Source: Spartobacteria bacterium (lineage in GTDB: Bacteria; Verrucomicrobiota; Verrucomicrobiia; Chthoniobacterales; UBA10450). From it: 64,000 nucleotides of DNA. How positions within the stretch are numbered: position 1 is the stretch's first letter; each line of letters begins with the position of its first letter. Shown here piece after piece: positions 22,337 to 55,289 of the stretch. Under the pieces are notes generated by a model, which saw only the letters and a list, made by a program, of their open reading frames with translations, had not been told where the DNA came from and did not search any database. A program made the translations under genes and the position numbers. The DNA lies in contig PMTM01000003.1 in assembly GCA_003167365.1 (NCBI GenBank), positions 159,645 to 223,644 of the forward strand, written 5' to 3'.

Positions 22337-22912
22337 GTGAGCACGACTTCGCCCCAAGATGTCACGCAAATTCTGCTCAACTGGCAGGAAGGCGATACCG
22401 ATGCGCCAGCCAAGTTGATGCCGATTGTTTATGAGGAGTTGCGCCGGCTGGCGCGCAATTATCTCCAGCGTGAACGAGCCGATCATACCCTGCAGGCCAC
22501 TGCGTTGGTCCACGAAGCCTACCTCCGGATGGTGGATGAGAAATCGGTGAGCTGGAAAGACCGCGCACACTTTTACGGAATCGCCGCGCGCTTGATGCGG
22601 CGTATTTTAGTGGATCATGCCCGGGCGCATAATGCAGCGAAACGCGGCGGTCTTGATCAAAAACTAACCCTCGATGAAGCGCAGGAGCTGCCCATGAAAG
22701 AAACGGTGGAGTTAGTCGCGCTGGACGGCGCCCTGGAAAATTTTGCTCAAACTTATCCGCGAAAAAGTGAGGTGGTCGAATTGAAATTTTTCGGCGGACT
22801 CGGCGCGAAAGAGATCTCCGAGGTGCTCCAAGTCTCGGAAAAAACCGTGTTGCGCGACTGGAATTTTGCCAAGCTCTGGCTCTGCCGGGAATTGAGCGAA
22901 AATGCAGCCTGA
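22337..22912 (+). CDS. ECF-type RNA polymerase sigma factor
   Basis: 191 residues from a GTG at 22337. Region 2 contains YEELRRLARNYLQRERADHTLQ and ALVHEAYLRMVD, then WKDRAHFYGIAARLMRRILVDHARAHNAAKRGG, and region 4 ends with LKFFGGLGAKEISEVLQVSEKTVLRDWNFAKLWL. This is the pattern of the Acidobacteria/Planctomycetes/Verrucomicrobia ECF group that is encoded beside Ser/Thr kinases. Its 3' end overlaps the kinase start by 11 bp. No anti-sigma gene is adjacent, so control by the kinase is the simplest reading (inference). The divergent gene at 18650-22213 shares the 123-bp intergenic region and could be a target. Confidence 0.95.
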   Translation: MSTTSPQDVTQILLNWQEGDTDAPAKLMPIVYEELRRLARNYLQRERADHTLQATALVHEAYLRMVDEKSVSWKDRAHFYGIAARLMRRILVDHARAHNAAKRGGLDQKLTLDEAQELPMKETVELVALDGALENFAQTYPRKSEVVELKFFGGLGAKEISEVLQVSEKTVLRDWNFAKLWLCRELSENAA

Positions 22913-38961: not shown

Positions 38962-39321
38962 TTAGGATTGCAACCGCCTAAGATTTCGCACCTCTGGCGT
39001 CTTACGAATCGCGACAATCACAGCGCATGCACCGACAACAAGTCCGCTGCCAAACGCAAAGACGAACAGAAGCCAAATCGGGAAGTTCGACAACCGCACG
39101 ATGCCTTCATTCACAAAGCGACCGCCACCCGAAAGTGTGTAGGCAATCGCGCTGCCCAAAGCGGTAATTCCGACAAGAATTATCCCACGCATCGAACGGC
39201 GCTGGCGCTGGACGGCCGGCAGCCTAGACACAACCCTGGCGGCGAAGCCGTTGTCGTCAATGTAGGGCGCGGCCTCGAGCAATTGTCGATCAAGCACGTC
39301 TTCCTCAGTCATCTCGTTCAT
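38962..39321 (-). CDS. membrane protein, presumed anti-sigma factor of the adjacent ECF sigma
   Basis: 119 residues. A short acidic cytoplasmic segment (MTEEDVLDRQLLEAAPYIDDNGFAARVVSRLP) precedes two membrane helices (IILVGITALGSAIAYTL, then FPIWLLFVFAFGSGLVVGACAVIVAI). It starts 4 bp after the sigma gene stops, the position typical of an anti-sigma factor. There is no zinc-binding HxxxCxxC motif, so it is not a ZAS-type anti-sigma; the assignment rests on context and topology. It may resemble DUF5056-like proteins found in the same position elsewhere (recall only). Confidence 0.7.
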   Translation of the reverse strand: MNEMTEEDVLDRQLLEAAPYIDDNGFAARVVSRLPAVQRQRRSMRGIILVGITALGSAIAYTLSGGGRFVNEGIVRLSNFPIWLLFVFAFGSGLVVGACAVIVAIRKTPEVRNLRRLQS

Positions 39322-39325
39322 GTTA

Positions 39326-39862
39326 TCAGTTCGGTCCCCAAGCCGCCAGCGTTCGTTTCAATTTCTCTCGTCCGCGCAGGACGTTCGTTTTCACGGTGCC
39401 GAGCGGAATGTCGAGAACGCGCGCGGCTTCGTCATGCGATAAGCCATTTTGACAGCATAACAGCACGGCCGAGCGCTCGTGCAATGGAAGTAAACTCAAC
39501 GCGTGCATGAGATCGTGCCGCAGCGCAGGATCGACCGTCCGCGTGTCCTGTTCGGCTTGTAATTGCTCTTCATCGATGCCGACGAGTTCTTTTCGTTTCC
39601 GAGCGTTTTCGCGAAAAGCGTTGTAGGCGATTCGATAAAGCCAGGTGGAGAAACGCGCCTCGCCACGGAAACTGCGAATGTTTTTGTAAGCGCGAAGGAA
39701 AGTTTCCTGCGCGAGATCGTCGGCCAGAGCGACATCGGTTCGCGTAAGCTGGCGAAGCACACCTCGCACGCTTGATTGATGATTCCGAACCAGTTCGGCG
39801 AAAGCATGGTGATCATCATCGAGTAAAACTCTTGCGACAAGGTCCGCATCAGTTAGCGCCAC
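39326..39862 (-). CDS. RpoE-like ECF RNA polymerase sigma factor
   Basis: 178 residues. Region 2 is visible as HHAFAELVRNHQSSVRGVLR, then DLAQETFLRAYKNIRSFRGEARFSTWLYRIAYNAFRENAR. Region 4 is LSLLPLHERSAVLLCCQNGLSHDEAARVLDIPLGTVKTNVLRGREKLK. This is a classical RpoE-type factor, different from the kinase-linked factor at 22337. It lies 9 bp after a DUF6249-like membrane-protein gene and 4 bp before the anti-sigma candidate, which suggests a membrane-signal-responsive unit. Confidence 0.96.
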   Translation of the reverse strand: MALTDADLVARVLLDDDHHAFAELVRNHQSSVRGVLRQLTRTDVALADDLAQETFLRAYKNIRSFRGEARFSTWLYRIAYNAFRENARKRKELVGIDEEQLQAEQDTRTVDPALRHDLMHALSLLPLHERSAVLLCCQNGLSHDEAARVLDIPLGTVKTNVLRGREKLKRTLAAWGPN

Positions 39863-40627: not shown

Positions 40628-40702
<75 letters not shown>

Positions 40703-40710
40703 TATTTACG

Positions 40711-41622
40711 ATGACCAAGCTGATCACGCGAATCGCGCCGGATGTCGGTTGGTTGCCGATAAGTTTTGCCAACATTTATTTCATCGGGCGGCCGGGTGGC
40801 AAATGGATACTGGTGGATGCCGGTTTGCCAGGTCGCGCGAACGAAATCGTGGAAGCGGCCGAAGCTCGCTTCGGCGCAGGCTCTCGGCCGGACGGAATTA
40901 TCCTCACCCACGGCCATGCCGATCACGTTGGTTCCGCGCTGGCTTTGGCGGAAAAGTGGGACGTGTTTGTTTACGCGCATCGGTTGGAAATGCCGTATCT
41001 CACGGGCAAATCTCCTTATCCGCCAGCCGACCCAACCGTTGGCGGGGCGATCGCTTTTCTTTCCCGTTTCTTCCCGACCCACTCCCACAATTTGGGCGAG
41101 CATCTGCATCCACTTCAACCCGGGAAAGTTCCCGGCATGACGGGCTGGAGATGGATCGCTACGCCGGGACATTCTCCAGGTCACATCTCGTTGTTCCGGT
41201 CTTCCGATCGCGTGCTGCTGGCGGGCGATGCGTTTGCGACCATGAATATGGATTCGTGGAGCGGTCTGCTTACCGGCAGGCAAACACTGGCGCGCGCAGC
41301 TTCGCCGTTCAATATAGATTGGCAGGCGACGCATTCATCGGTCCAAGAGTTAGCCAGCCTGCGACCGAATGTTGTGGGGTGCGGACATGGCATTCCGATG
41401 CGCGACGCGGACTTGCCTGAGCGAGTAGAAGCGTTCGCGGAAAAATTCCGTGCGCCTAGGCACGGACGTTATGTTCGGCGTCCTGCCAGGACGGACAAGA
41501 ATGGAATCGTCGATCTTCCACCAGCGCCATTCGATCCGGTGCCGTTGGCAACGGCCGCTTCGCTGGTCTTAGTTGGTATCGCTCTGGGCGCCGGTTATCT
41601 CGACAACGAGAAGCGGCGCTGA
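40711..41622 (+). CDS. metallo-beta-lactamase-fold hydrolase with C-terminal membrane segment
   Basis: 303 residues from the ATG at 40711; an open frame reaching into the tRNA is ignored. Metal ligands are complete: ILTHGHADHVGS (HxHxDH), TPGHSPGHIS, LLAGDAF and GCGHGIPM, the glyoxalase II-type set. The opening strands read SFANIYFIGRPGGKWILVDAGLPG. Residues about 280-297 (ATAASLVLVGIALGAGYL) form a C-terminal membrane helix, so the enzyme may be tail-anchored. The substrate is unknown. With only 8 bp to tRNA-Gly it is probably co-transcribed with it. Confidence 0.92.
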   Translation: MTKLITRIAPDVGWLPISFANIYFIGRPGGKWILVDAGLPGRANEIVEAAEARFGAGSRPDGIILTHGHADHVGSALALAEKWDVFVYAHRLEMPYLTGKSPYPPADPTVGGAIAFLSRFFPTHSHNLGEHLHPLQPGKVPGMTGWRWIATPGHSPGHISLFRSSDRVLLAGDAFATMNMDSWSGLLTGRQTLARAASPFNIDWQATHSSVQELASLRPNVVGCGHGIPMRDADLPERVEAFAEKFRAPRHGRYVRRPARTDKNGIVDLPPAPFDPVPLATAASLVLVGIALGAGYLDNEKRR

Positions 41623-41657: not shown

Positions 41658-42434
41658 TCAAAAGTTCGGTGGCGATCCAGTTCTGATCGGCGGTGGCGTC
41701 GGCCTGACCGCGCCGGCTTGGTCGAGCGTGTCGATGTTGGTTGGATCGGTAAAACCACCGGGCGGCGGCGATGTCTTTTGATCTTCTATATCGATTAAGA
41801 TGAGATCCAGCTCGGGGAGTTTCCCAGAAAAACCGCTGACCAATTTTCCTTGCAGCAACTTGGAAAGATCGACATTCAAAATGTCCGGACATCTTGTCGG
41901 ATGCAGCGGCCACACGACCATTTGTCCCGTGTGCAGTTCGCATGGCTCGGTCGGAATTCCTGCGAACGAAATTTTTCCCTTACCATGAAGGACAATAAAT
42001 TTATTCCACCCCTTGGCGTGGTGCTCGAACATGGCGGTAAAACCGGTAACCGCCGCAGTGGCGGCGCCGACCTTCACTTTGGTTGTGCCCGATTCCTTGG
42101 GCACAGATATTAACATTGCGCCGCTGGCGAGATCAAAATCCTTTCCGCCTTCCCTGAAGCTAAAAATGCTGTTCGCACCGAGCCGGGTCAGGGTTTGATC
42201 GGTAAAGGTAAGTTCTGTCCGCGAATCAATGCCGGTCCGGACTGCCGTTCCCGTGCTCACAGAATCATTTACCGACGCCGGACGCGGTGATGCGCCTGAA
42301 GGAAGTAAATGCACGTCCTTAATAATTTGGGTCACACGTGCTTCCTTTTTTTGCACGGCAAACGCGAAGTGCGTGATCGTGGCGAAAATGACCAGAGAGG
42401 CCAGAACTGCAAAGAGGTGAAACAATTTTTTCAT
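41658..42434 (-). CDS. FecR-domain secreted protein (small, operon gene 5)
   Basis: 258 residues. A signal peptide (about 1-26) is followed by a FecR-like domain (about 33-200): VNDSVSTGTAVRTGIDSRTE, LTFTDQTLTRLGANSIFSF, GAMLISVPKESGTTKVKVGA, AVTGFTAMFEHH, GKGKISFAG and HTGQMVVWPL. A conserved end follows (FTDPTNIDTLDQAGAV) with a Pro-rich tail. Unlike classical FecR there is no N-terminal cytoplasmic anti-sigma domain and no sigma gene nearby, so it is not a FecI/FecR regulator. It is 29 bp downstream of the giant protein gene. Role unknown; see the five-gene operon. Confidence 0.88.
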   Translation of the reverse strand: MKKLFHLFAVLASLVIFATITHFAFAVQKKEARVTQIIKDVHLLPSGASPRPASVNDSVSTGTAVRTGIDSRTELTFTDQTLTRLGANSIFSFREGGKDFDLASGAMLISVPKESGTTKVKVGAATAAVTGFTAMFEHHAKGWNKFIVLHGKGKISFAGIPTEPCELHTGQMVVWPLHPTRCPDILNVDLSKLLQGKLVSGFSGKLPELDLILIDIEDQKTSPPPGGFTDPTNIDTLDQAGAVRPTPPPIRTGSPPNF

Positions 42435-42463
42435 AATCGAGTGAGATTGATGTCGATCTTGTC

Positions 42464-45400
42464 CTAAGGGCCGCCCGGCGGACCGAGCGGCGGGGCGGCA
42501 GAGAGTGGCTGCGGATTATTTGCGCCCAGTCCGCCAAATGTGCCAGTGGTTGAATTATTACCGCCAAAGCCGCTGTAATTCGCATTTTTGGCGAAAACAT
42601 CGGCGATGTGTCCGGTGATGTTGACCGTGACAATGTTATTAATGGTAACTGAATTTGCCGCGATGATGTTCGCAGTGCCGCCATTGAGCGTGCAGCTGGC
42701 GATGAAATTGATCTGGCCGTTGCTGCCGGGAGCGTAGAGTTTCAAAACGGTGTTGGCGTTGATCAAACCGCCGCCGATGCTCAGTGAGCCGTTATCGCCC
42801 AGCGCAGCAATCTTGATGATATCAGCCCTCATGTTTGAATTGTTGATGTTAATCGATCCGTTGTCTCCCATGTGGCGGACGTCGATGGCGCCGCCGTCGG
42901 CCTCGATTATTCCGACATTGCTGCCACTGATGTTGATTTGGCTGTTGTTGCCAGTCGGAGCGCTGGCCAAGATGGTGATGGTTCCTCCGGGACCGGGAGC
43001 GACGCTGTCGAGGAGCGATAACAACTGGGCGGTGTTAGTGATAGTAATCGCGACGCCAGTGGTGGCGCCGCTGCTCAGGTTGATATTCCCACCGGTGGTG
43101 CTGGAGCGACGATTAGAGGCACCAACTGGATCACTCGACGAAACTTGAATGGTTGAATTCTGAATCGTTAGCTGGTCTCCTGAATTCAGGGAAACGGTCC
43201 CACCAGCTCCGCTCGGTTCAGCGGTCGGGTCAATGATACCGGTCGTGGCACTGATCGTCGTTCCATTGAGACTGATATTACCAACGGTGTTGACCGTGAA
43301 ATTTCCTCCGCCGCCGGCTGGATTTCCAAGACCACTCGAGTCCTCGCCGTTGAAGTTGGCGCCGTTAATTCCTGCAGCGGAAAACGTCTGACTCTCCGCG
43401 TTGATCGTGAGCAATCCTCCATTGCTGGCGGTGCCGAAGTGAATCCCACTAAAATCAATCCCCTTGGGCGATTGGATGGTCATTACATCGAAGATGTGCT
43501 GCAACGCGGCCCCGCTGGGCCCTACGAATGGTGTGATGCCACCGCTACCAGCGATCAAGGTCGTGTTCGACGGGGGAACGGAATTGGGATTTATGTTCTG
43601 CACCTCGATGTGGCCCGCCGTGATGTTTCCGCCAGCCGTAACGCTCGGCGAAAGCAACGTGTTCGTGACACTGATAATGTTTCCAGCGAAGATCGAATCA
43701 AAACCGGTCAAGTCGCCGGCGGAGGTGATATCGCCACTGGCAAAAATCGAATTGGCCACCAAATCGCCACTAGAATGGACGCTGCCGCCTGTGGAATCAA
43801 CGATGTCACCGCCAACGATTGAATTAACGACGATGTCGCCGGTAGACGTGAACTCCATCGAGTTGCTGGCTTGAAGAAAGGTCGTTTCCGGGGCCTGTAT
43901 GCCACCGGCACCAATTGCGAACTGAATCGGAGCCAGATCCTTGAATGCGATCGTGGTCCCACCCGCGTCAGCGGTAAAGCTTACTGCATTAGCCATGACC
44001 GTGAGCGAGTCAGCATTTGAGAAGACGCTTTGATCGTTCCGAATGTCGAGATTTGCGGTCGCGCCGGCTTGCAGAAACACGTTGGTCGTCGCGCCCACGC
44101 CGACAGCAAAATCAGCGGTAGTGAAATTGACGTTATTACCGGCGGTGATGGAGATGTTTTGCGCTACGACGTGTCCGGTGCCGGCAAGAAAGTCCACGCC
44201 GGCATCCGAACGGAAGGTGGTTACATTTTCTGCAGCATTGATTTGAACCGATCCTTCCGCATTCAGTTGGACGCTGGTGACTCCGGTGATTGGAGAAGCA
44301 AGAGTCAGGTTCGAAGTCGCGCCCCGCGCGTAAAAAATAAGAAATGGAATATTCGAGAAGCTGATACCAGCGGTGAGATTGATCGAGCCGTTCTGGGTGA
44401 AGAGTGCGAGCGTATCGAGACCGGTGAAAGTGAGCGTGCCACCCGGCGGAGCCGAAGTAAGATCGCCAATACTGATGAGCGCAAGTTTTGTCGCTCCGCC
44501 TGGCGGAATCGTGATAGTTGCGTTCCCCGTTAATTGCAGGTTTGTGAACTTGAATACCGCCAGGGGCAGGTTGATCGACTGTACAAATTGTTCGCTAAAA
44601 CCGCTGTTTGCATCAAACGCAGAGGACGATCCAAACATGTAATCGCCCGGAGCTCCATCAAGTGCCCCTCCTCGATAGAATTTCCCTACACTGGTAATGC
44701 CATTGGTCGTGATCGTTGGCGCCGTGACAAAGTGTGTCGTGTTATTGATAATGTAGGGGTCCGGCGAAGTAATCGTGTTGAGTGGACCGACTTCAATTGG
44801 TTGAAAACCGACGCCCAGATTGCGAACCGCATTCGTTTTTTGATCGATGGTGTCGAGCGACGTCGGGTCGACGAGCGTGACAAGTGTTCCCCGTCCAACA
44901 ATAACCAGATTTGTGTCTATGAGATCGCCATCGACCTTCTGGTCATGTTGGTGCTTAATTTCGTCCGCGATCAACGGTGTGCTTCCGAGCGGCGGAAAAT
45001 CAGTAATGAGCACACAGGTTTTCATCAGCCGGTCAAGATCGACATCCACCGGATCGGGCAACCGCTTGGCATCCGGTTTCACGACGAGCATCTGGCCGGG
45101 TTTAATCAGCACCGATTCACCCAACCGGCCTTTCATATACAGGCGCGCGGTGCCTTCAAGACTGATAAACTTGATGTAAGCTTTCGGATGATATTCCAGT
45201 AGAACGGTCGTGCCGGTGATCGCGGCCGTGACCGCGGCAGTACGAACGGTCGCGCCGCCAGCGTCTTTCGGCACGCGCAAAAGCATGGCGCCGCCGCCGA
45301 GATCGAGCCGGCGTGTTCCTTCGTTGAAACTGAACAGCGTATTGGCCCCAAGCCGTGCCAGCGTCTGATCGCTAAACGTGAGCTCGGTCCGAGAGTCTTC

Positions 45401-45625
45401 GCCCGTCCGCACGGCCGTACCATCACGGACGTTGTCGTTAATAACAGCGGCTCTGGATGCGGCCTGCCCTGGGAGCAGATTTACGTCTTTCACAATCTGC
45501 GTGATCTGCGCCTCTTTTAGCTGGGCCGCAGTTGCTGATTGAGCTGAAACAAGCGCAAGCAAAACGAGAAACACAACCGAGAATGTTAGTTTCGGTTGTG
45601 AAATGTCGCGAAGCGCCGTTCGCAT
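42464..45625 (-). CDS. giant FecR-domain surface protein A (operon gene 4)
   Basis: 1,053 residues from the ATG at 45625, after which VFLVLLALVSAQSATAA gives a good signal peptide; upstream frame to 45745 lies in the barrel gene. Residues about 35-200 are a FecR-like domain (GTAVRTGEDSRTELTFSDQT, RLGANTLFSF, MLLRVPKDAGGATVRTA, TGTTVLLEYH, LIKPGQMLVVK). A shared linker follows (DLIDTNLVIVGRGTLVTLVDP). From about 300 to 980 a filamentous-haemagglutinin-like beta-helix is expected, with many short strands (NITAGHIEVQNINPN, GGNFTVNTVGNISLNGTTIS). The last 75 residues contain NYSGFGGNNSTTGTFGG, matching the end of protein B. No barrel and no PEP-CTERM are present. It starts 5 bp after the barrel gene stops. 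Confidence 0.85.
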   Translation of the reverse strand: MRTALRDISQPKLTFSVVFLVLLALVSAQSATAAQLKEAQITQIVKDVNLLPGQAASRAAVINDNVRDGTAVRTGEDSRTELTFSDQTLARLGANTLFSFNEGTRRLDLGGGAMLLRVPKDAGGATVRTAAVTAAITGTTVLLEYHPKAYIKFISLEGTARLYMKGRLGESVLIKPGQMLVVKPDAKRLPDPVDVDLDRLMKTCVLITDFPPLGSTPLIADEIKHQHDQKVDGDLIDTNLVIVGRGTLVTLVDPTSLDTIDQKTNAVRNLGVGFQPIEVGPLNTITSPDPYIINNTTHFVTAPTITTNGITSVGKFYRGGALDGAPGDYMFGSSSAFDANSGFSEQFVQSINLPLAVFKFTNLQLTGNATITIPPGGATKLALISIGDLTSAPPGGTLTFTGLDTLALFTQNGSINLTAGISFSNIPFLIFYARGATSNLTLASPITGVTSVQLNAEGSVQINAAENVTTFRSDAGVDFLAGTGHVVAQNISITAGNNVNFTTADFAVGVGATTNVFLQAGATANLDIRNDQSVFSNADSLTVMANAVSFTADAGGTTIAFKDLAPIQFAIGAGGIQAPETTFLQASNSMEFTSTGDIVVNSIVGGDIVDSTGGSVHSSGDLVANSIFASGDITSAGDLTGFDSIFAGNIISVTNTLLSPSVTAGGNITAGHIEVQNINPNSVPPSNTTLIAGSGGITPFVGPSGAALQHIFDVMTIQSPKGIDFSGIHFGTASNGGLLTINAESQTFSAAGINGANFNGEDSSGLGNPAGGGGNFTVNTVGNISLNGTTISATTGIIDPTAEPSGAGGTVSLNSGDQLTIQNSTIQVSSSDPVGASNRRSSTTGGNINLSSGATTGVAITITNTAQLLSLLDSVAPGPGGTITILASAPTGNNSQINISGSNVGIIEADGGAIDVRHMGDNGSININNSNMRADIIKIAALGDNGSLSIGGGLINANTVLKLYAPGSNGQINFIASCTLNGGTANIIAANSVTINNIVTVNITGHIADVFAKNANYSGFGGNNSTTGTFGGLGANNPQPLSAAPPLGPPGGP

Positions 45626-45630
45626 ATTGG

Positions 45631-46635
45631 CTAGAACTTGACCGCTAATGACACCGCGCCGCCCACGTTGGCGACGTCGTAATCGAAAACGCTGTGGTTG
45701 GACTGAGTTTTGGCGAAACTGCTGATCACGCTCGCCGTACACCATTTCGTCAGGCGATAAGATGCGGTCAGGGCCAGAATTTCGCTAACGTCGACTCGAT
45801 CGCCCTCTACATAATCATGCACCATCACCCGGCCAACGGCGTCAATGGATAATGCACGCGTGAAATTTACGCCGTATCCGAGATAAGCGTCGTATTCGTG
45901 CCGTCTCGGGCCATCGGGTTCTCCCGCTAAACTAACACTTACGTCCGTCCCCAACGCGACGCGCTGCGCCCGTCCGATCTGGAATGGAAGCTCGGCATTG
46001 AAGTTCAAAGAGTGATTCTCAAACAATGCATCAAACGAATCCTTGGTGGTGAGCCGGTTGTAATCGTAGAACACATGCAGAATCAGATTATGAAACTGTG
46101 GGAGCAAATATGTCACGCCGGCTTCGAGATCAAAGGCACCGAAATCAAAACTACCGTATTTGTTGTAGTAAAAAAGTTGGTCCTGAACCGACAGGTGGCC
46201 GTAAAATGTCTTCGTAATCTGGGGATCGTAAGAGAGGCCAACAACCGGCGCCGCGATGACGTCCCCGCGTTCACCGCTGTTCACCAGCGCGACGTTCGAT
46301 GTATAATAGATTGGTGTGGCGAACGAAATTGTGAATGGTTGATATTCGTCCTGGCGCTTAAGGATTTCCTGAACCCCAAGGTCCGGGTCGTTTGGACTGG
46401 CCGCGGCGTGGCCGTCATCGACTCCGTTAACCGATACCTGCGGACCGGTCGGAAATTGATTCTGATTGCCTAACAACTGCGCTCGATCGACATCTTGACT
46501 AGTTTGTGCAACACCGGACGTGGCGAAACAAGCGAACGCGATCGTGCCGCAAAGTGCGCCGAGAAGGCGAGAACGATCAGAGAGAGAGAGAGAGATCATG
46601 GAAGCGGATTTCTTTGTTGGAGTCAGGAAATTCAT
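45631..46635 (-). CDS. outer-membrane beta-barrel protein of the FecR operon (operon gene 3)
   Basis: 334 residues. A signal peptide ends near SGVAQ after LLGALCGTIAFACFAT. The mature protein alternates amphipathic strands and turns (FTISFATPIYYTSNVALVNS, YGHLSVQDQLFYYNKYGSFD, LTASYRLTKWCTASVISSFA) and ends VSLAVKF with a terminal Phe. It fits a barrel of 12-14 strands. No POTRA domain or FhaC-type motif is seen, so it is not a standard two-partner secretion pore. An (AG)8 tract lies just after the second possible start (46599). Slippage there would switch translation if initiation is at 46599 or 46635. It lies 22 bp after giant protein B and 5 bp before giant protein A. Confidence 0.85.
   Translation of the reverse strand: MNFLTPTKKSASMISLSLSDRSRLLGALCGTIAFACFATSGVAQTSQDVDRAQLLGNQNQFPTGPQVSVNGVDDGHAAASPNDPDLGVQEILKRQDEYQPFTISFATPIYYTSNVALVNSGERGDVIAAPVVGLSYDPQITKTFYGHLSVQDQLFYYNKYGSFDFGAFDLEAGVTYLLPQFHNLILHVFYDYNRLTTKDSFDALFENHSLNFNAELPFQIGRAQRVALGTDVSVSLAGEPDGPRRHEYDAYLGYGVNFTRALSIDAVGRVMVHDYVEGDRVDVSEILALTASYRLTKWCTASVISSFAKTQSNHSVFDYDVANVGGAVSLAVKF
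46579..46594. repeat. (AG)8 dinucleotide tract in the 5' coding region of the barrel gene
   Basis: Eight uninterrupted AG units (CT on the coding strand) encode the SLSLS segment ahead of the hydrophobic part of the signal peptide. Adding or removing one unit would shift the frame after about 20 codons. Confidence 0.9.
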
Positions 46636-46657
46636 GGGTCGTCAAGCAATTAATCAA

Positions 46658-49600
46658 TTAAAAGGGCGGCGGCGTCCCACTTGGGACAGTAGTTGCACCA
46701 CTCCCGCTGAATATGCCGGTGGTCGAATTGTTTCCGCCGGAGCCGGTATAATTCGGGTGGCTCGTGTAAACAGTGGCAGCCGGCCCACCGACTGTCACAA
46801 CGACACTATTAAAGATGGTAACGCTATTGCCCGCGATAATCTTGGTCGAGGCGCCGCTGAGCGTCACGTCGGCGATGAAATTCACCGAACCGTTGCTGCC
46901 GGTCGCATAAAGTTTCAACATGGTATCGGCGTTGATTGTGCCACCGCCTATATTAAGAGTGCCGTTGTCGCCGAAAGCGCCGACTTTTACCACATCAGCC
47001 CGAATGTTTGCGTTATTGATGTTGATCGTCCCGCTATCGCCATTGTGTTCGATGTCCACTGTCCCTCCACTACCGTCGGCCTCTATTAGTCCGTTACTGT
47101 TGTCGATATTGATGCTGCTGCTGTTGCCACTATTATTCGACGCGCTCGCCAAAATTGTAATCTTGCCCCCGGGCCCAGGAGCGGCGGCGCTAAGCAAGGA
47201 GAGCAATTGCGCGCTGCTGCCAACATTGATGGCGACTCCAGACGTCTTGCCGCTGGTGAGTTTAATATTTCCGCCGCTCGCGCTTTGCCGGAACGGCGCA
47301 ATCGTGCTGGCCGGTTCAGCCGAGGAAACTTCGATGCGATTGTTCACTGTAACCGTATCGCCCGACGAATTAAGATCGACCGTCCCTCCGAATCCCGCTG
47401 GGGTCGCATAGGGAACAGGTTGGAAGTATCCGCTGGTGGCTTCGATATCGGAATTAACCACGATTGTTCCGGTTGTGTTGACTGTCAGATTTCCGCCGTC
47501 GCCAGGCAGGGTTGGCGTAGTGCCGTTAGAAAATCCATTCTGGTCCGCGCCGTTAAAATTCACCGGTCCAATGCCGGTGCTTGGATCAAAGGAAAGGGAA
47601 TTCGCATTGATCGTGAGCAATCCGCCGGACGACAGGCCTGCGATACCGTCGAATTGATTGCCGCTGAAATCGATTCCATTGGGCGAAACAATGGAATCGA
47701 CGGTGTAGATGTGCGGGGCCGCTGCGCCCTGCGGGAACCCCGGGGCGGTACTGAAGATCGAAGGATTTATTCCATTGGCAACGCGCAGCACGCCGGTCGG
47801 TGATGTAATATACTGCACACTGGTGTTGCCTGCGGTGATATCTCCGCCAGCCATGAGCGACGTCGCGGAAATGGATTGTCCCGCTGTGATTGTCGTGCCA
47901 GCTGTGATCGCACCGCCTATAATACCGCCCCCCACATTGAGAGATGTGCCAGCGGTGATATCGCCCTCCCAAAGATTGCCGGTGATAGAGATCGCTCCCG
48001 CCGCATTCACGTTTCCGCGGGCGAAGCCGTCAGTGAACGTGATCGAGTTCGCGGTAATATCTCCTCCGGACATCAGGTTGAGTCCCGCGCCGGAGTAATT
48101 GACGTCGGTGAATTGCGCGTTAATTCCGCCGGCGCCGGCTGTGAAAGTGGTATCGCCGGAGAGCGGGAGGGTGAGCGTCGCAGGAACGTCGGAGTTTCCC
48201 CCGGTGAAGTTAATCGCGTTGCCCGCCGTCGCGTTCAGCGCGAAAGAATACGCGAAACTCGTATTCGCAGCATTAATCGTAATATCATGCGCGACGTTCC
48301 AGGTGCCGCCAAAAATATTGATCGCGGTGGCATTGTTAGGCCCGATGGTAAGATCGCCACTGCCATTGATATTGAACGTGGCTGCTTGCACAGTGCCGCC
48401 ATCGATCGTGATCGTGGGAGTCGAACCACCGGGATCATCTTGATCGAGAGTAACGGTCCCGAAATCAGCCCGCACCAGGCCGTTCAACACGATGTCCGCT
48501 CCCAGGGTGGACAGCGTAATCGAGCCAGGCGTGCCATTGGCATTGAGGGCATTAAAATTCAGAAAAGAGAGCAACTGTCCGCCACTGGAAATGGTGATTC
48601 CTGTGCCGGTAGACAGATTGCTTTGCAAATCAATGTTCCCCCCGCTTGCGCTTGCGCGTCCGGCGGTGCCGTTCTGATCCAACCTTTGATCGTCATTGGA
48701 AACCTGGACGGTGCCGTCCACCGTAATGGCGCCGCCAATGGAGGTAATGTTCACCGTCCCGCCGTTGCCGGCGTACTGCGAGGTATCGTCGGAAACTATT
48801 CCCGTGCTCGCCGAAATTCCAATGCCATTCGCACCATTGTTAACCACCACATCGCCCGCCGACACGATGTCGATCTTCCCGCCATTGCCGCCGCCGAACG
48901 GACCGCTGGCGTTGTAGGCTCCGCCGTTGGCCGAAATCGAATCCAGATTTTGCCCATCGCCAATCGTTAGGCCCGCAGCCGTAATCGTTAGGGTAATATT
49001 TCCGCCGTTACCCGGATTTGAGTCAGCGAAATTCGGATTCGCATCGCCACCGTCGGAAGAAAGAACCGCATATGCGGGCCCGGTACTCGAAATCGCGCCT
49101 ACCGTCATCGTGAAGTCGTTGTAGGTGATGCCATCATCACCGGTGAATCCTCCGTTGTTGGGCGTTATGTGCGGAACATTGTCCAAGGTCAGCGTTCCAC
49201 CCGCGATGAGATGATTAACGATCACTCCGATGCCAGAGAGAGAACCGCTGGCATTATTGATAAAAATATCCGTCCCGGCCTGAAGCGTCCCGGTGATCAC
49301 TCCGGGCGTTCTAATAAATCCGCCAGCCGATACGATCACTGGATCTCCCGGCGTAAAGATTCCCCCTTCCGCATCAATGTTTCCGCCCGCCGTGATATTG
49401 CCGAACGTTCCAGGCGGATTTTGACCGAGCTGCAACGCTGCCGCGGTGGTAATGTTGCCTTGGGTAGCAATGATGGAACCGCCAAACGCTTCGATTCCAT
49501 CATCCACATCGATCGATCCAGTATCGGCTAGAATGCTCCCTGCCTGCAATCCTCCGCCGATCGTGATGCTGTCGCCAACATGTATCGTTCCGGTAAAAAC

Positions 49601-51424
49601 ATTTCCTGTCGCCAGAAACGAACCGGCCGCCGTGATGGCTCCCTGAAGAATCGGATTTCCGCTCTTTTCGAGCGGAGTGGTCGCGGAATGAACACTGATG
49701 TCGCCCAAGGAGTCGAGCGTCAGGTTCTGGCCAAAGAAGTCGATGTTCGGCGCGTTGATGCCTCCCGCTCCGGCAATGAACGTCACGCTGCTTGAGCTCG
49801 AGAAATCAAAGGTCGTGGGTGTCGGGCTGGTCAGATTAATTGTCGCGCCTTGGGCGTTGAGCGTGTCCCATCCGAATATGCCGCCGCCGTTGATAGCAAT
49901 GTTTAGCGTGTTGGCCGCGTTGAAAACGATCGAGTCGCCTCCACCCGAAGGATTGGGAAACTTGCTCGAGTCGATATTGATATTGGCCAGTGACTCAATG
50001 TCGATATTCGTCGCTGTGACCAAACCGGATCCGGCTAGAAAATCGCCGCCGGAAACCGCACGAAAGTCCGTCGTGCTCTCGTCGCCGTTGACCTGAATTG
50101 TGCCCTCGGCGTACAATCTTATCTCATTCACGTTGGAGATCGGCGAAGCAAGGGTAAGCGCGGAGCCAGTACCCCGGGCATAAAAATAAAGCTTCGATAG
50201 GCCGCTAAATGCGATCTCGGGACCGAGATTAATTGACCCGGCTTGCGTTCCGATAAAAACGTTTTGCATGCCGGCGAAGGTCAACGTCCCGCCCGGCGCA
50301 CCCGAGGTAATATCGCCAACACTAACGAGACCAAGGTTTGTCGCGCCGCCGTCGATTGCTGAGACGGTTGGGTTCCCAACCAACTGCAGACTTGAGAATT
50401 TGAAGACCGCGTAAGGTCCATCCTGGCCTGGGCCTACCCCGAAGACGGATGCATCAAACGGTCGCGTCGAACCATAAATAAATTGGGGCACCGTCCCGTC
50501 CTGTGCTTGTCCCCGATAAATTTTCCCGTAATCCGTCACACCATTCGTGGTAATTGCAGGATCAGTCTGAATCAGCGTTCCTGAATTGATCACGTAAGGA
50601 TTTGGTGAGCTAATTGTCGATGGAGCACCAAATTCGCTTGGCGTTCCAGTGGGCGACCCAGACGGGGAAGGACTCGGCGAGGAGGCAGCAGTCTTTTGGT
50701 CGACCACGTCGGTGGAATCCTTCGGCGGCGGGGTGGAACTCCCGCTTACAAATTCCGCTTCCTGTTCCCGAATCACGGCCAAGATCAACGGCAAGTTCGC
50801 GAGATCAGCAAAAGGCAGGATCAGCTCTGAGGTCTCGAGAACCAGTTTTACATTGAACGGTGTCGGGCCAATCATGTGGCCATCCGGCGTGAATGTGACC
50901 ATTTCTCCACCGTGGAGAGTCATTGCTTCCTCCGGGTGACCCGCCGGATAAAACGTCCCGGTCCCTTCCAAGACCATGAATTTTATCGGTGGACCCGTTC
51001 CAAAAATGGCTGTCCCACCAGTAATGGCAGCCGTGACCGCCGCCGTCTTAACTTTGACGGAGGATCCATTTGGCGGCACTTGCATTAAGATCGAGCCTTG
51101 CCCTAAATCGAAAGCCCGCGCTCCGACGTTGAAACTGAATATGCTGTTCGCGCCCAGGCGCGTCAGCGTCTGATCGGTAAATGTGAGTTCCGTTCTCGAA
51201 TCCTGACCGGTTCGCACTGCTGTTCCTTCGCGGACATCATCATTAATAGCGGCCGATCGTGGCGTCGCGTTGGACGAGACCAGTTTTACATCATGTATAA
51301 CTTGCGTAACGCGCGCGGAATTCAGTGCGGCACCCGCTGGTTGCGCTTGCAGCAATAAGAACGAAAAGAGCAAACACGTTGCCACAAATTCGCCACTCGC
51401 TGATTTCCTAGAATATTTATTCAT
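46658..51424 (-). CDS. giant FecR-domain surface protein B (operon gene 2)
   Basis: 1,588 residues. A signal peptide (about 1-32, including CLLFSFLLLQAQPAGA) is followed by a FecR-like domain at about 36-210 (REGTAVRTGQDSRTELTFTD, RLGANSIFSF, SILMQVPPNGSSVKVKTAA, TLHGGEMVTF). A Ser/Pro-rich linker with STVVDQK-like sequence comes next, then FGAPSTISSPNPYVINSGTL, also present in protein A (TSPDPYIINNTTHFV). From about 330 to 1,510 a long beta-helix is predicted, with many GGNITLTI / NITSIGGAIT units rich in Gly, Asn, Thr and Ser. The end carries NADTMLKLYATGSNGSVNF and NYTGSGGNNSTTGIF, homologous to protein A. It probably acts as a surface adhesin or matrix protein; the secretion route is unknown. 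It starts 6 bp after gene 1. Confidence 0.85.
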   Translation of the reverse strand: MNKYSRKSASGEFVATCLLFSFLLLQAQPAGAALNSARVTQVIHDVKLVSSNATPRSAAINDDVREGTAVRTGQDSRTELTFTDQTLTRLGANSIFSFNVGARAFDLGQGSILMQVPPNGSSVKVKTAAVTAAITGGTAIFGTGPPIKFMVLEGTGTFYPAGHPEEAMTLHGGEMVTFTPDGHMIGPTPFNVKLVLETSELILPFADLANLPLILAVIREQEAEFVSGSSTPPPKDSTDVVDQKTAASSPSPSPSGSPTGTPSEFGAPSTISSPNPYVINSGTLIQTDPAITTNGVTDYGKIYRGQAQDGTVPQFIYGSTRPFDASVFGVGPGQDGPYAVFKFSSLQLVGNPTVSAIDGGATNLGLVSVGDITSGAPGGTLTFAGMQNVFIGTQAGSINLGPEIAFSGLSKLYFYARGTGSALTLASPISNVNEIRLYAEGTIQVNGDESTTDFRAVSGGDFLAGSGLVTATNIDIESLANINIDSSKFPNPSGGGDSIVFNAANTLNIAINGGGIFGWDTLNAQGATINLTSPTPTTFDFSSSSSVTFIAGAGGINAPNIDFFGQNLTLDSLGDISVHSATTPLEKSGNPILQGAITAAGSFLATGNVFTGTIHVGDSITIGGGLQAGSILADTGSIDVDDGIEAFGGSIIATQGNITTAAALQLGQNPPGTFGNITAGGNIDAEGGIFTPGDPVIVSAGGFIRTPGVITGTLQAGTDIFINNASGSLSGIGVIVNHLIAGGTLTLDNVPHITPNNGGFTGDDGITYNDFTMTVGAISSTGPAYAVLSSDGGDANPNFADSNPGNGGNITLTITAAGLTIGDGQNLDSISANGGAYNASGPFGGGNGGKIDIVSAGDVVVNNGANGIGISASTGIVSDDTSQYAGNGGTVNITSIGGAITVDGTVQVSNDDQRLDQNGTAGRASASGGNIDLQSNLSTGTGITISSGGQLLSFLNFNALNANGTPGSITLSTLGADIVLNGLVRADFGTVTLDQDDPGGSTPTITIDGGTVQAATFNINGSGDLTIGPNNATAINIFGGTWNVAHDITINAANTSFAYSFALNATAGNAINFTGGNSDVPATLTLPLSGDTTFTAGAGGINAQFTDVNYSGAGLNLMSGGDITANSITFTDGFARGNVNAAGAISITGNLWEGDITAGTSLNVGGGIIGGAITAGTTITAGQSISATSLMAGGDITAGNTSVQYITSPTGVLRVANGINPSIFSTAPGFPQGAAAPHIYTVDSIVSPNGIDFSGNQFDGIAGLSSGGLLTINANSLSFDPSTGIGPVNFNGADQNGFSNGTTPTLPGDGGNLTVNTTGTIVVNSDIEATSGYFQPVPYATPAGFGGTVDLNSSGDTVTVNNRIEVSSAEPASTIAPFRQSASGGNIKLTSGKTSGVAINVGSSAQLLSLLSAAAPGPGGKITILASASNNSGNSSSINIDNSNGLIEADGSGGTVDIEHNGDSGTININNANIRADVVKVGAFGDNGTLNIGGGTINADTMLKLYATGSNGSVNFIADVTLSGASTKIIAGNSVTIFNSVVVTVGGPAATVYTSHPNYTGSGGNNSTTGIFSGSGATTVPSGTPPPF

Positions 51425-51430
51425 ATCACT

Positions 51431-52276
51431 TCACTTCGCCTTCTCGCCGGAATTAAGCGCCGCAGTTGCAGGCGGAACCGAACCCGGTATGGCTGATGGC
51501 CCCGCCTTTTCTTGATCGATCGCCGCAACTTGCGCTGGATCGACAAGTGAGACCACCGTTCCACCCCCAAAAATTACCAGATTCGTGTCGATCAAATTCT
51601 TTTTGGATTTCTCACGCTGCTGCTTGTGACTCTCGCTCGCCATCAAACCTTCGCTGCCGAGCGGCGAAAAGTCCGTGATGAAGCGGGACGTCTTCAAGAA
51701 GCGTCCAATATCAAAATCGACCGGATCGCTCAATGCCGCTTTTGGCTGGCCGAACACCATTTGGCCGGCCTTCACCAAAATCGAGTCGCCGAGATGTCCG
51801 GGCCGATACAATCGCGCTGTCCCGTCCAAAACGAGAAACTTGTAATAGGTAGCGTGATATTCCAGAACGACCGTTGTGCCTGTTACCGCGACCGCAATTG
51901 CTCCGGCAGAAATTCGAGCGCCGTTCGCGCTCTTTGGAACCCGAAGGAGTAAGGCTCCATCTTCCAGGTTCAAATTTCGAGTTCCATCTCGGAAATCAAA
52001 CACGGCGTTGGCTCCGAGTCGCGTAACGGTCTTGTCGCTGAATGTCAGTTCCACTCGCGAGTCTGCTCCTGTGCGCACCTTGGTTCCCTCCGAAACGCTA
52101 TCATTCACCGCCGCGATTCGTGCGGCCGCGTTCGTTCCAACCAATTGCACATCTTGAATCACCCGTGTAACGCGCGCTTCAATCTTCTGCCAGGCCGACA
52201 CGCTTGGCGGACCGCCAACCGCGAAGACAACCAGATTAATCGAGACGACGAGACTGCAAACGTTGCGAGAATTCAT
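51431..52276 (-). CDS. FecR-domain secreted protein (small, operon gene 1)
   Basis: 281 residues with a signal peptide (LVVSINLVVFAVGGPPSVSA). The FecR-like domain spans about 33-210: VNDSVSEGTKVRTGADSRVE, RLGANAVFDF, ALLLRVPKSANGARISAG, VTGTTVVLEYHATYYKFLVL, LVKAGQMVFGQPK. The tail KNLIDTNLVIFGGGTVVSLVDP matches the linker of giant protein A, so this is a free-standing version of that protein's N-terminal half. It begins the operon 92 bp after rnd. Whether it has its own promoter or is read from rho-rnd is open; the gap holds a GAGGCCCAGGCCCTC palindrome without a T-run. Confidence 0.88.
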   Translation of the reverse strand: MNSRNVCSLVVSINLVVFAVGGPPSVSAWQKIEARVTRVIQDVQLVGTNAAARIAAVNDSVSEGTKVRTGADSRVELTFSDKTVTRLGANAVFDFRDGTRNLNLEDGALLLRVPKSANGARISAGAIAVAVTGTTVVLEYHATYYKFLVLDGTARLYRPGHLGDSILVKAGQMVFGQPKAALSDPVDFDIGRFLKTSRFITDFSPLGSEGLMASESHKQQREKSKKNLIDTNLVIFGGGTVVSLVDPAQVAAIDQEKAGPSAIPGSVPPATAALNSGEKAK

Positions 52277-52368: not shown

Positions 52369-53424
52369 TCACGCCGGAATGCCAAGCAGCTTGCGCTGCC
52401 AGGGTACGAGCAACGCTTCGGCGCTTTCTTCGTTGGCAGCCACCGCTTCCAACGCGGCTCGTGGCGCAACGACGGTCGGCTCCAATTCCAATTGAATTGC
52501 CCCTCGATCGCGGCGCCGTCTCAATTCCTCCGTCCGCTGTCTCATTTCGAAGGTCGGACGCGTGCCCAGGCGAGGTCGCCGAACGGGCCAGGCTTCTTCC
52601 GGCAATTGGAGCGCGTGCTCGGCAGCTTCCTGAAATGCGCGGCGGCGGCGCGGCGAAAAGTGCGCGTAATCGGGCCTCGCGCCTTCTGCGAAACCTTCCG
52701 CTGCGGCAAGCAGTTCGCTGTTTTGCAAAATATGGAACGGCGGGCGATCGACCGCTTCTGCTTCTTTCTCGCGCCATTGCCACAACGCGCGCAGCACCGT
52801 CGCGGACCGACCGCGCAGCGTGCCCGCGCCGGATATTCGCCACGCTTCATCGGCGTCGCGCACTCGCTCGACCGCGGCTTGCTCCAGCGCGCGCTGACAC
52901 GATTGCCGAAACCAATCCAGCCGATCGCGTTCGTGCAATTCCTTTTCCAACCGTTCGGCCAGAGGCAGCAAATAATGCGTGTCGTTAATCGCGTATTCCA
53001 CCATCTTCGGTGAAAGCGGTCGCCTCGCCCAATTCGCTTTCTGCGAACCCTTGGTGAGCTTCACTCCAAAAAAACGCTCGACCAGCGCGGCCAAACTGAA
53101 CTCGCGGATCCCGAGCAAGCGCGCGGCGATGACCGTATCGAAAATTGTGTGCGCGGTGAAATTCAAACTGCGGCGCAGCAAACGCAGATCGAAATCGGAG
53201 CCTTGCAAAACAATCTCCTTCTTCTCCAGAAGCGCGCGCAACGGCGCCAGATCGACCTCGGCCAGCGGATCGACCAAAAAATCCCGGCCCGGAACGCTGA
53301 TCTGAAGCAGACAAAGTTTTTCCCGATAACAATGCAAGCTGTCCGCTTCCGTATCGATCGCCACGCGATCAACCGAATCGATGTGCGGAAGCAGCTCTTC
53401 CAGTTGCGAAGAGTTCGTGATCAC
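52369..53424 (-). CDS. rnd: ribonuclease D
   Basis: 351 residues from a GTG at 53424, which overlaps the rho stop as GTGA. The DEDD exonuclease fold is complete: VAIDTEADSLHCY (Asp-Glu), LQGSDFDLRLL (Asp) and YAINDTHYLLPLAERL (Tyr-Asp). An HRDC-like helical domain lies at about 205-280 (AGTLRGRSATVLRALWQWRE), and a second helical region ends in an acidic tail. RNase D trims tRNA and other stable-RNA 3' ends. An open frame back to 53550 is rejected because it lies within rho. It forms an operon with rho and possibly with the FecR operon downstream. Confidence 0.95.
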   Translation of the reverse strand: MITNSSQLEELLPHIDSVDRVAIDTEADSLHCYREKLCLLQISVPGRDFLVDPLAEVDLAPLRALLEKKEIVLQGSDFDLRLLRRSLNFTAHTIFDTVIAARLLGIREFSLAALVERFFGVKLTKGSQKANWARRPLSPKMVEYAINDTHYLLPLAERLEKELHERDRLDWFRQSCQRALEQAAVERVRDADEAWRISGAGTLRGRSATVLRALWQWREKEAEAVDRPPFHILQNSELLAAAEGFAEGARPDYAHFSPRRRRAFQEAAEHALQLPEEAWPVRRPRLGTRPTFEMRQRTEELRRRRDRGAIQLELEPTVVAPRAALEAVAANEESAEALLVPWQRKLLGIPA

Positions 53425-54974
53425 CGCAGCCCGCTTAAGAGTAGCTCGGCGTTGGTCTTGGTCGCTTCGAGATTTTCGATCAACTTTTCCATTGCCTCGA
53501 TTGGCGGAAGTGCCGCCATTGTTTTCCGCAAAACCTGGACGCGTTCCCATTCGTCCGGATGATAAAGCAACTCCTCGCGCCGCGTCGCCGATTGCAAGCA
53601 GTGGATCGCAGGGTACAGCCTTTTCTCCACCAGCGCGCGGTCGAGATGCAGCTCCATGTTTCCCGTGCCCTTAAATTCCTCGAAAATCAGTTGGTCCATC
53701 CGGCTGCCGGTATCGATCAACGCCGTCGCCAAAATGGTCAGGCTCCCGCCTTCCTCGACATTGCGCGCCGATCCGAAAAACTTCTTCGGCTTCATCAGCG
53801 CTTTCGATTCCACGCCGCCGGACATGGTGCGACCTTTGCCCGGCACGAGACTGTTATATCCGCGCGAAAGACGGGTGATGCTGTCGAGCAAGATTACTAC
53901 GTCCTTCTTTAATTCCACCAATCGCTTCGCGCGTTCGAGTACCAGTTCCGCAACTTGCACATGGCGCTGAACGTTCTCGTCGAAATTCGAACTGTAAATC
54001 TGGCAATCGATCTCGCGATGCAGATCGGTGACCTCTTCGGGGCGCTCGTCCACCAGCAGCATAATGAGAACGATCTCCGGATGATTCACCCGGATCGCTT
54101 TGGCAATTTCCTTAAGCAAAATCGTCTTGCCCACGCGCGGCGGCGCCACGATCAACCCGCGCTGCCCGCGCCCGAGCGGCGCCAGAAGATCGACCGCGCG
54201 TGCGCTGATCGAATTGGTCGTCGTGTTTTCCAGCAGGATCCGACCTTGCGGAAATTGCGGAGTCAATTTTTCGAAATCCGGCGGCTCGCTCCATTGATCG
54301 GGCGCTTGCCCCTCAATCGACGTGACCTCGTCGAGCATTAGCAATTTTTCCCGATCGCGCGGCAGACGAAGTTTTCCGGCCAGTTCCTGACCCGGCCGTA
54401 GATGAAAGCGTTGAATGATCTCCCGCGAAACACAAACATCCTCGGGCACAGGCAAAAAATTCAACTTTGGCGAGCGCAATAATCCGAAAGAGTCGCCGGC
54501 TTGATCGAGAAAACCTTGCGCCGTCACTGTTCCACCGCGACTCAAAGCGTGGCGAACAAACTCCGCGATCTGATGATGACGCGAACGCGACGGATTGAAA
54601 TGCATTCCGAGTTCCTTCGCGACCGATTCCAGTTCTTCGGTCGAAGCACTTTGCAGTTGATTTAGATCGATCGGTTCAGGCGGTAGCCTCGAAGCGACTT
54701 CCGCTGGAGGCGGTGTAGTGGCGGCTGTCTCAGCCGCATCTGCTGTAGCCATGTCGCCGCTCTGCTCCGCTTCTCCCGTAGCGGCAGACGTGTCGCCTGT
54801 ATCCGGTGTAGCGACGGCTGTCTCACTCGCGAAAGCTTTCGGAGTCTCAGCCGCATCAGGAATAACCGCAGAAGTATCACCGGCGTTTCCCTCTTCGCGA
54901 ACGACCGGCGTCTCGCCTCCTTTTCCTTCGTCCGCTTGCGCCACCGGCTCTTGCGTTTTCGTCTCCTCGTCCAT
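53421..54974 (-). CDS. rho: transcription termination factor Rho with a long N-terminal extension
   Basis: 517 residues from the ATG at 54974; an in-frame GTG lies at 54980. Residues 110 onward are canonical Rho. The Rho-N helical domain is LNQLQSASTEELESVAKELG, the cold-shock RNA-binding domain includes GLLRSPKLNFLPVPEDVCVS, Walker A is VAPPRVGKT, Walker B is IVLIMLLVDERPEEV, and the Q/R loops include DSITRLSRGYNSL and PKKFFGSARNVEEGGSLTIL. The first 105 residues are low-complexity, rich in Ala, Thr, Glu and Asp. They are partly encoded by copies of a TGTAGC...GCGGCTGTCTCAGCCGC repeat (54714-54850). Such extensions occur in Rho of several phyla and can tune RNA binding or phase separation; a repeat-built origin here is an inference. 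Confidence 0.97.
   Translation of the reverse strand: MDEETKTQEPVAQADEGKGGETPVVREEGNAGDTSAVIPDAAETPKAFASETAVATPDTGDTSAATGEAEQSGDMATADAAETAATTPPPAEVASRLPPEPIDLNQLQSASTEELESVAKELGMHFNPSRSRHHQIAEFVRHALSRGGTVTAQGFLDQAGDSFGLLRSPKLNFLPVPEDVCVSREIIQRFHLRPGQELAGKLRLPRDREKLLMLDEVTSIEGQAPDQWSEPPDFEKLTPQFPQGRILLENTTTNSISARAVDLLAPLGRGQRGLIVAPPRVGKTILLKEIAKAIRVNHPEIVLIMLLVDERPEEVTDLHREIDCQIYSSNFDENVQRHVQVAELVLERAKRLVELKKDVVILLDSITRLSRGYNSLVPGKGRTMSGGVESKALMKPKKFFGSARNVEEGGSLTILATALIDTGSRMDQLIFEEFKGTGNMELHLDRALVEKRLYPAIHCLQSATRREELLYHPDEWERVQVLRKTMAALPPIEAMEKLIENLEATKTNAELLLSGLR
54714..54850. repeat. cluster of TGTAGC/GCGGCTGTCTCAGCCGC repeats in the rho 5' region
   Basis: A perfect palindrome GCGGCTGTCTCAGCCGC lies at 54721-54737, preceded by TGTAGTG and followed by CTGTAGCC. 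Related pieces follow: CCCGTAGCGGCAGACGTGTC near 54775, GTGTAGCGACGGCTGTCTCA near 54807 and GTCTCAGCCGCATCAGG near 54843. The same head and hairpin type occur at 2507-2530 and 718-770. All copies are read in frame as Ala/Thr/Asp/Glu-rich protein. Confidence 0.65.
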
Positions 54975-55289
54975 GATCACGCGCGAACAGACCCCAGCCG
55001 TCCTGTCATAATGGATTTTACCGTCGCTCTCATGCGAGATGGATTATCTGCGAAAAAATTCGGGAGAATTAGTTGGTGCTCCGTGCCGGCGAATCCGCTA
55101 ATGGAGAAATTTGCTCGAGCGCCGTTTCCGGCTGCGTCGTCAGACAGTATGGACGCCAACCGCCGCTAATTCAAGCCTTCAATGCAGCGGGTGCGTCCTA
55201 ATTTGAGGGTTGGTCGCGACGATAACCGAACTCCAGGATTGCAGGCGACATGCCTGCCCTCGCTTAACGTCTAGATTGGATAAGAGCTT
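54975..55289. other. 315-bp gap between rho and autotransporter 1
   Basis: No gene can be supported here. The side next to rho is its leader. Near the autotransporter end lies a hairpin GCAGGC-GACAT-GCCTGC (55241-55257) without a T-run on either strand. It may be a Rho-dependent or decayed terminator of the autotransporter gene or another dispersed repeat. Confidence 0.6.

Follow-up and report, generated by a model that had tools for sequence, protein, structure and literature searches.

An exported-FecR and outer-membrane-barrel locus of Verrucomicrobiota, most likely a signal-sensing device

What would four exported FecR-domain proteins do around a single outer-membrane barrel? The question is raised by a five-gene locus in a 64,000-nucleotide stretch of a Spartobacteria bacterium genome (contig PMTM01000003.1, our C9, of the 3.1 Mb genome G000; hereafter the window). 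We read it most probably as a signal-sensing device, one that may also serve surface display, and not as a new secretion system. An outer-membrane sensor feeding a CHASE2 adenylate cyclase is favoured because the part that relatives keep is the FecR–barrel pair, whether or not a solenoid is attached, and because CHASE2 cyclases, sometimes together with kinases that bind cyclic nucleoside monophosphates (cNMPs), recur beside it. In gene order, the locus comprises:

51431–52276 (minus strand): small FecR protein 1, 281 amino acids (aa); a signal-like segment, then FecR at 66–154 (PF04773, E 8.3e-12).
46658–51424 (minus strand): giant FecR B, 1588 aa; a signal-like segment and FecR at 70–154 (PF04773, E 2.6e-9).
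45631–46635 (minus strand): outer-membrane barrel, 334 aa; a signal-like segment and a 12-strand barrel predicted at 101–334 (AlphaFold2).
42464–45625 (minus strand): giant FecR A, 1053 aa; FecR module 35–230 (PF04773, E 3.2e-10), linker, solenoid and C-terminal motif.
41658–42434 (minus strand): small FecR protein 2, 258 aa; a signal-like segment and FecR at 65–151 (PF04773, E 8.8e-10).

Gaps of 6, 22, 5 and 29 bp separate the genes, and the open reading frames (ORFs) match the place, sizes and spacing given in an earlier note on this DNA. Signal-like segments (hydrophobic N-termini) were called by eye. Giant A is taken to start at the ATG at 45625, which precedes its signal-like segment; the ORF itself is open from 45745.

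PF04773 scores above its gathering threshold in all four FecR proteins (37.8–45.8 bits against a cut-off of 24; E 8e-12 to 3e-9), with the domain beginning some 65–72 residues in, behind the signal-like segment. Pfam detects no anti-sigma N-domain in these proteins and, the signal-like segment apart, they have no membrane helix. The earlier note's description of FecR placed directly after a signal peptide, with no anti-sigma segment, is thus borne out. In giant A, the modelled FecR module matches the cell-surface signalling domain (CSSD) of PupR (Z 15.4, root-mean-square deviation (rmsd) 2.3, 138 residues). Docking of the FecR proteins on peptidoglycan, raised in the same note, was dropped, as Pfam finds no peptidoglycan-binding domain in the proteins of the locus. 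One more signal-peptide FecR protein, the fifth in the genome, is encoded on contig C11 (L106:9298–10368), with no barrel neighbour in the stretch read.

The AlphaFold2 model of the barrel has 12 strands over residues 101–334, most with a predicted local distance difference test (pLDDT) value above 90, and the C-terminal residue is Phe. The N-terminal part (about 65 residues) is poorly predicted at residues 36–79. The closest structures are NalP (Z 21.3), EspP (21.2), AaaA (20.7), a COG4313 channel (19.9) and FapF (18.4), and the fold is also similar to the small-molecule channels CymA and KdgM. No POTRA domain is present in the model; Pfam gives no PF03797 or ShlB (PF03865) match to the barrel, and its E value of 0.015 against BBP2_2 falls under the cut-off. 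A shared modelled fold, for the barrel as for giant A, is not proof of function. The barrel family is single copy in the window genome.

The barrel family is present in 36 of 58 relatives and in 64 of the 188 genomes of the class. At 38 of 40 order-level loci, a same-strand FecR gene lies within two genes of the barrel; the two exceptions are L042, which lies close to the end of its contig and holds remnants of a solenoid, and L050, which is degraded. A separately fetched set of class-level loci gives 28 of 40, and two more of its loci, L164 and L166, have FecR proteins beside the barrel that the FecR profile missed but Pfam recognizes. By our own estimate, chance would place a FecR gene there about 1% of the time (roughly 5–20 FecR genes among a few thousand genes). 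The barrel–FecR pairing is strongly conserved, far above chance, and the co-occurrence across Verrucomicrobiota raised by the earlier note is found, the homologues not being scattered. A scan of genome contigs with a single barrel sequence gave no match; the same scan with a six-sequence barrel alignment recovered mostly Verrucomicrobia, Chthoniobacterales and Spartobacteria metagenome-assembled genomes (MAGs).

The exact five-gene order is not conserved among relatives. In the closest (L181, 70% barrel identity), the order is giant, barrel, small FecR and a metallo-beta-lactamase (MBL)-fold gene. The L181 contig is binned as Acidobacteriaceae, yet its gene order is that of the Verrucomicrobiota locus; the binning is probably an error. 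FecR partners vary in length from about 250 to 2200 aa. Small complete FecR proteins stand alone in 26 of 65 barrel–FecR loci, so the giant solenoids are optional.

A CHASE2 adenylate cyclase lies within five genes of the barrel at 24 of 80 loci, 15 of the 40 from the order and 9 of the 40 from the class, against a chance linkage that we estimate at about 0.4 in 80. For both G005 and G017, the sole CHASE2 match is the cyclase encoded next to the barrel orthologue, about 275 bp upstream and in the same orientation. The only CHASE2 cyclase of the window genome (L107) is encoded on another contig; a tree places it with the G005 and G017 cyclases in one 13-member clade (100/100 support). All 36 barrel-positive genomes have CHASE2, and none of the 6 CHASE2-negative genomes has the barrel (hypergeometric p about 0.002, by hand and without phylogenetic correction). 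Five loci (L058, L060, L061, L063 and L064) add to CHASE2 cyclase, barrel and FecR a histidine kinase that binds cNMPs, encoded downstream of FecR; L060 and L064 have an additional MBL-fold gene. One homologue of this kinase is found in the window genome, at 36% identity. FecR genes also stand divergently beside CHASE2 cyclases where no barrel is seen (L112 and L116). The cyclase and kinase neighbours in relatives point to signalling, a reading absent from the earlier note.

The closest worked parallel is in S. meliloti, where the outer-membrane protein NsrA is required for signalling by the CHASE2 cyclase CyaK (PMC7529298, PMC13001267). A plasmid gene pair of this species (L126) encodes a 1209-aa protein that combines FecR (85–179, E 8.7e-15) with TPR repeats and, at its C-terminus, a barrel region; a CHASE2 cyclase lies directly downstream. 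We call this protein NsrA-like, on the strength of its size, barrel position and neighbour rather than an accession. Both systems place FecR behind a signal peptide and have an outer-membrane barrel; a CHASE2 cyclase is the candidate partner here too, with receptor and cyclase genes adjacent in relatives of the window genome. NsrA is a single FecR–TPR–barrel polypeptide with a larger barrel region, whereas the locus encodes its 12-strand barrel apart from FecR, has several FecR genes, two of them extended by solenoids, and is not linked to the cyclase of the window genome.

Further relatives of this theme are known. In Campylobacterota, genes for CHASE2 cyclases form a cluster with those for a phosphodiesterase, a TPR component and an outer-membrane protein that contains FecR (PMC9239204). 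The genetic link between a FecR-domain outer-membrane protein and a CHASE2 cyclase is common to both; phylum and components differ, and a separate barrel or solenoid giants are not described there. The Burkholderia BiofilmReg operon pairs a LysM-FecR protein with a CHASE2 histidine kinase (PMC5192318), again an exported FecR protein with a CHASE2 receptor; there CHASE2 belongs to a histidine kinase, LysM and FecR form one protein, and the operon has no reported barrel. Leptospira LIC11834, a putative surface lipoprotein (PMC3444417), likewise has a signal peptide then FecR, with no barrel partner described. Signal-peptide–FecR proteins are therefore already known from LIC11834, LysM-FecR and the NsrA-like protein, and the earlier note's view of them as a new reuse of the fold does not hold. 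FecA–FecR–FecI and PupB–PupR resemble the locus in setting a FecR fold alongside an outer-membrane barrel; unlike them, it shows neither an anti-sigma domain nor a membrane helix, and it has no TonB receptor and no cognate sigma factor that relatives retain. In the literature searched, which included few subscription papers, four features are not described: the split pair of FecR and 12-strand barrel, its spread in Verrucomicrobiota, its link to cyclases and cNMP kinases, and the architecture of FecR, linker and a solenoid like those of two-partner secretion (TPS).

To our knowledge, the route by which an outside signal reaches CHASE2 receptors across the outer membrane is largely unknown, NsrA being the main worked example. 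We give roughly even credence to the barrel and FecR proteins forming the outer-membrane and periplasmic half of a cell-surface signalling system, with a CHASE2 adenylate cyclase as its inner-membrane half: a split counterpart of NsrA. The barrel, on its predicted fold, would be seated in the outer membrane, and the secreted FecR domains may bind its periplasmic face, in the way that FecR/PupR modules contact outer-membrane receptors. A surface event would alter this complex and, we infer from linkage in relatives, be relayed inwards to the cyclase, here encoded on another contig, through its periplasmic CHASE2 domain. The resulting cyclic AMP (cAMP) could be read by cNMP-binding proteins, for example the cNMP-histidine kinase whose gene lies beside paralogous loci. 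The TPS-like solenoids, carried on a flexible linker by two of the four FecR proteins, would probably extend the sensor, either outside via the barrel or within the periplasm. If this is true, FecR–barrel complexes would be a general outer-membrane input for cAMP signalling, with concrete genes and loci named, and the optional solenoid giants would be a means of tuning or extending the sensor.

Several observations weigh against this proposal. At 56 of 80 barrel loci no CHASE2 cyclase lies within five genes (some of these are contig ends), and some genomes have a CHASE2 cyclase without a detected barrel (many are incomplete MAGs). Cyclase and kinase are unlinked to the locus in the window genome, so the connection rests on relatives. 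The barrel-family profile fails to recognize the barrel of the NsrA-like protein, so homology is shown for the FecR part only. The giant solenoids, which account for most of what the locus encodes, are unexplained by signalling alone.

The two giants are paralogues, 41–48% identical over FecR and solenoid, and a genome search confines the solenoid to them. Giant B runs from FecR through a Pro/Ser-rich linker into a long Gly/Thr/Ser/Asn-rich solenoid and a C-terminal GxFxGxGA motif. Giant A (AlphaFold2 mean pLDDT 85.6) is predicted to form a β-solenoid over 283–1045 with high confidence, separated from the FecR module by a disordered 37-residue linker (239–275, pLDDT below 50). The solenoid claim rests on AlphaFold2, because a search for tandem DNA repeats in the giants found none and their hydropathy periodicity is weak. 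Structural matches of the giant A solenoid are HMW1 (Z 19.3), the EtpA secretion domain (Z 18.5, aligned to residues 290–623) and HxuA (Z 17.4, but rmsd 16); the Pfam TPS domain PF05860 is unmatched. In composition, the solenoid is Cys-poor and Gly/Thr/Ser/Asn-rich. A C-terminal block ending [ST]xGxFxGxGA is kept across the FecR–solenoid giants of the order (window, L031–L064), and is possibly an end cap or an export or folding signal. Two weak resemblances to adhesins were seen: residues 35–124 of giant A with the cell-surface anchoring domain 5ix9 (Z 5.8), and small FecR protein 1 with the LapA-retention model (E 7e-4, 19.8 bits against a cut-off of 50). Sequence searches of the PDB with P0001, P0002 and P0003 found no relative. 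A phage origin was discarded, there being no PHROGs match.

The locus is flanked by:

52369–53550 and 53421–54980 (minus strand): RNase D-like and Rho genes (Pfam), conserved upstream neighbours outside the system.
40642–41622 (plus strand): convergent MBL-fold gene (PF00753), a conserved downstream neighbour outside the system.
39326–39862 (minus strand): extracytoplasmic function (ECF) sigma factor (PF04542 and PF08281), 1.8 kb past the last gene of the locus.

Rho and/or RNase D stand beside the barrel in 11 relatives, and the MBL gene is in the matching place in L032, L033, L034, L036, L037, L050 and L181; in several relatives the locus sits between the two. Rho, RNase D and the five genes share a strand with short gaps, 93 bp lying ahead of the first FecR gene, and a single transcript across the whole run is plausible from this layout. 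Consensus scans of the stretch for promoter-like and terminator-like sites returned about as many in shuffled sequences. The ECF sigma gene, which corrects the earlier note's statement that no sigma gene is near, was not found beside the locus in relatives and is probably incidental for that reason. It is followed by a small membrane protein (38962–39321, minus strand; weak DUF5056 match), possibly its anti-sigma factor, and a DUF6249 protein lies upstream of the pair. As that note had said, no TonB-receptor gene is near: the nearest plug domain on the contig is about 77 kb off.

Could the locus serve display instead? Here the 12-strand barrel would be a pore or anchor, with FecR as a periplasmic plug, the linker threaded through the barrel and the solenoid exposed at the surface, on the model of a split (inverse) autotransporter or of a retained adhesin such as LapA. 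The likeness of the barrel to autotransporter translocators and FapF, of the solenoid to the TPS exoproteins HMW1, EtpA and HxuA, and of FecR to 5ix9 would fit, as would the disordered linker, the solenoid composition, the conserved C-terminal motif and the sub-threshold LapA-retention match. Barrel and solenoid are separate proteins, unlike in type Va autotransporters, the barrel has no PF03797 match, and a FecR module and linker come before the solenoid. The barrel fold is common to many unrelated pores. LapA-type control was rejected: beyond the low retention score, a genome search finds no LapG-type protease (PF06035). The 26 loci with small FecR proteins alone have nothing to display, so solenoid export cannot be the barrel's general job. 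Of the earlier note's proposal that the barrel is an export or anchoring partner, what survives is that the modelled folds would make display structurally possible, and we regard display as a possible but doubtful account of the locus. An unlikely variant would join display to signalling: a pull or binding on an external solenoid, its linker through the barrel, would change the FecR plug and switch the CHASE2 cyclase. Less probable again is a periplasmic scaffold, in which FecR and solenoids form a structural or ligand-binding layer under a small-molecule channel, with neither export nor specific cyclase signalling. The channel-like matches of the barrel (COG4313, CymA and KdgM), the variable solenoid (from none to proteins of about 2200 aa) and the many loci without a cyclase neighbour speak for it; against it stand the CHASE2 cyclases and cNMP kinases that recur as neighbours, and the NsrA precedent.

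Two established systems fare worse. TPS, with the barrel as TpsB or with an unlinked transporter exporting the giants, is very improbable. The solenoid does align with TPS secretion domains, and one ShlB-family outer-membrane transporter is encoded elsewhere in the genome (L204:7074–8768, contig C11). That gene has no large exoprotein gene adjoining it, and the solenoids come after a FecR module and linker, not at the mature N-terminus. Unlike the 16-strand, POTRA-bearing barrel of type Vb TpsB, the barrel here has 12 strands and no POTRA, and neither it nor the giants match PF05860 or ShlB; TPS was rejected on these grounds. Sigma regulation of the FecI–FecR type, acting through the ECF sigma gene, is scarcely credible. 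That gene lies close by and the FecR fold matches PupR, but the FecR proteins have neither a cytoplasmic anti-sigma segment nor a further membrane helix, no TonB receptor is nearby, and the sigma gene has its own small membrane protein next to it; its lack of conservation beside the locus led us to reject this model. The outer-membrane sensor feeding a CHASE2 cyclase remains the favoured explanation.

Elsewhere, the window encodes a protein that looks cytoplasmic and combines part of a cyclase domain with many TPR repeats (13656–15797, plus strand), and an ECF sigma factor (PF07638) followed directly by a Ser/Thr kinase with TPR repeats (22337–25373, plus strand). Upstream of Rho lies a classical autotransporter of 1388 aa (55290–59456, minus strand; PF03797, E 1e-50; PATR) with a repetitive passenger. 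A further open ORF (59631–63998, minus strand) resembles this autotransporter by eye.

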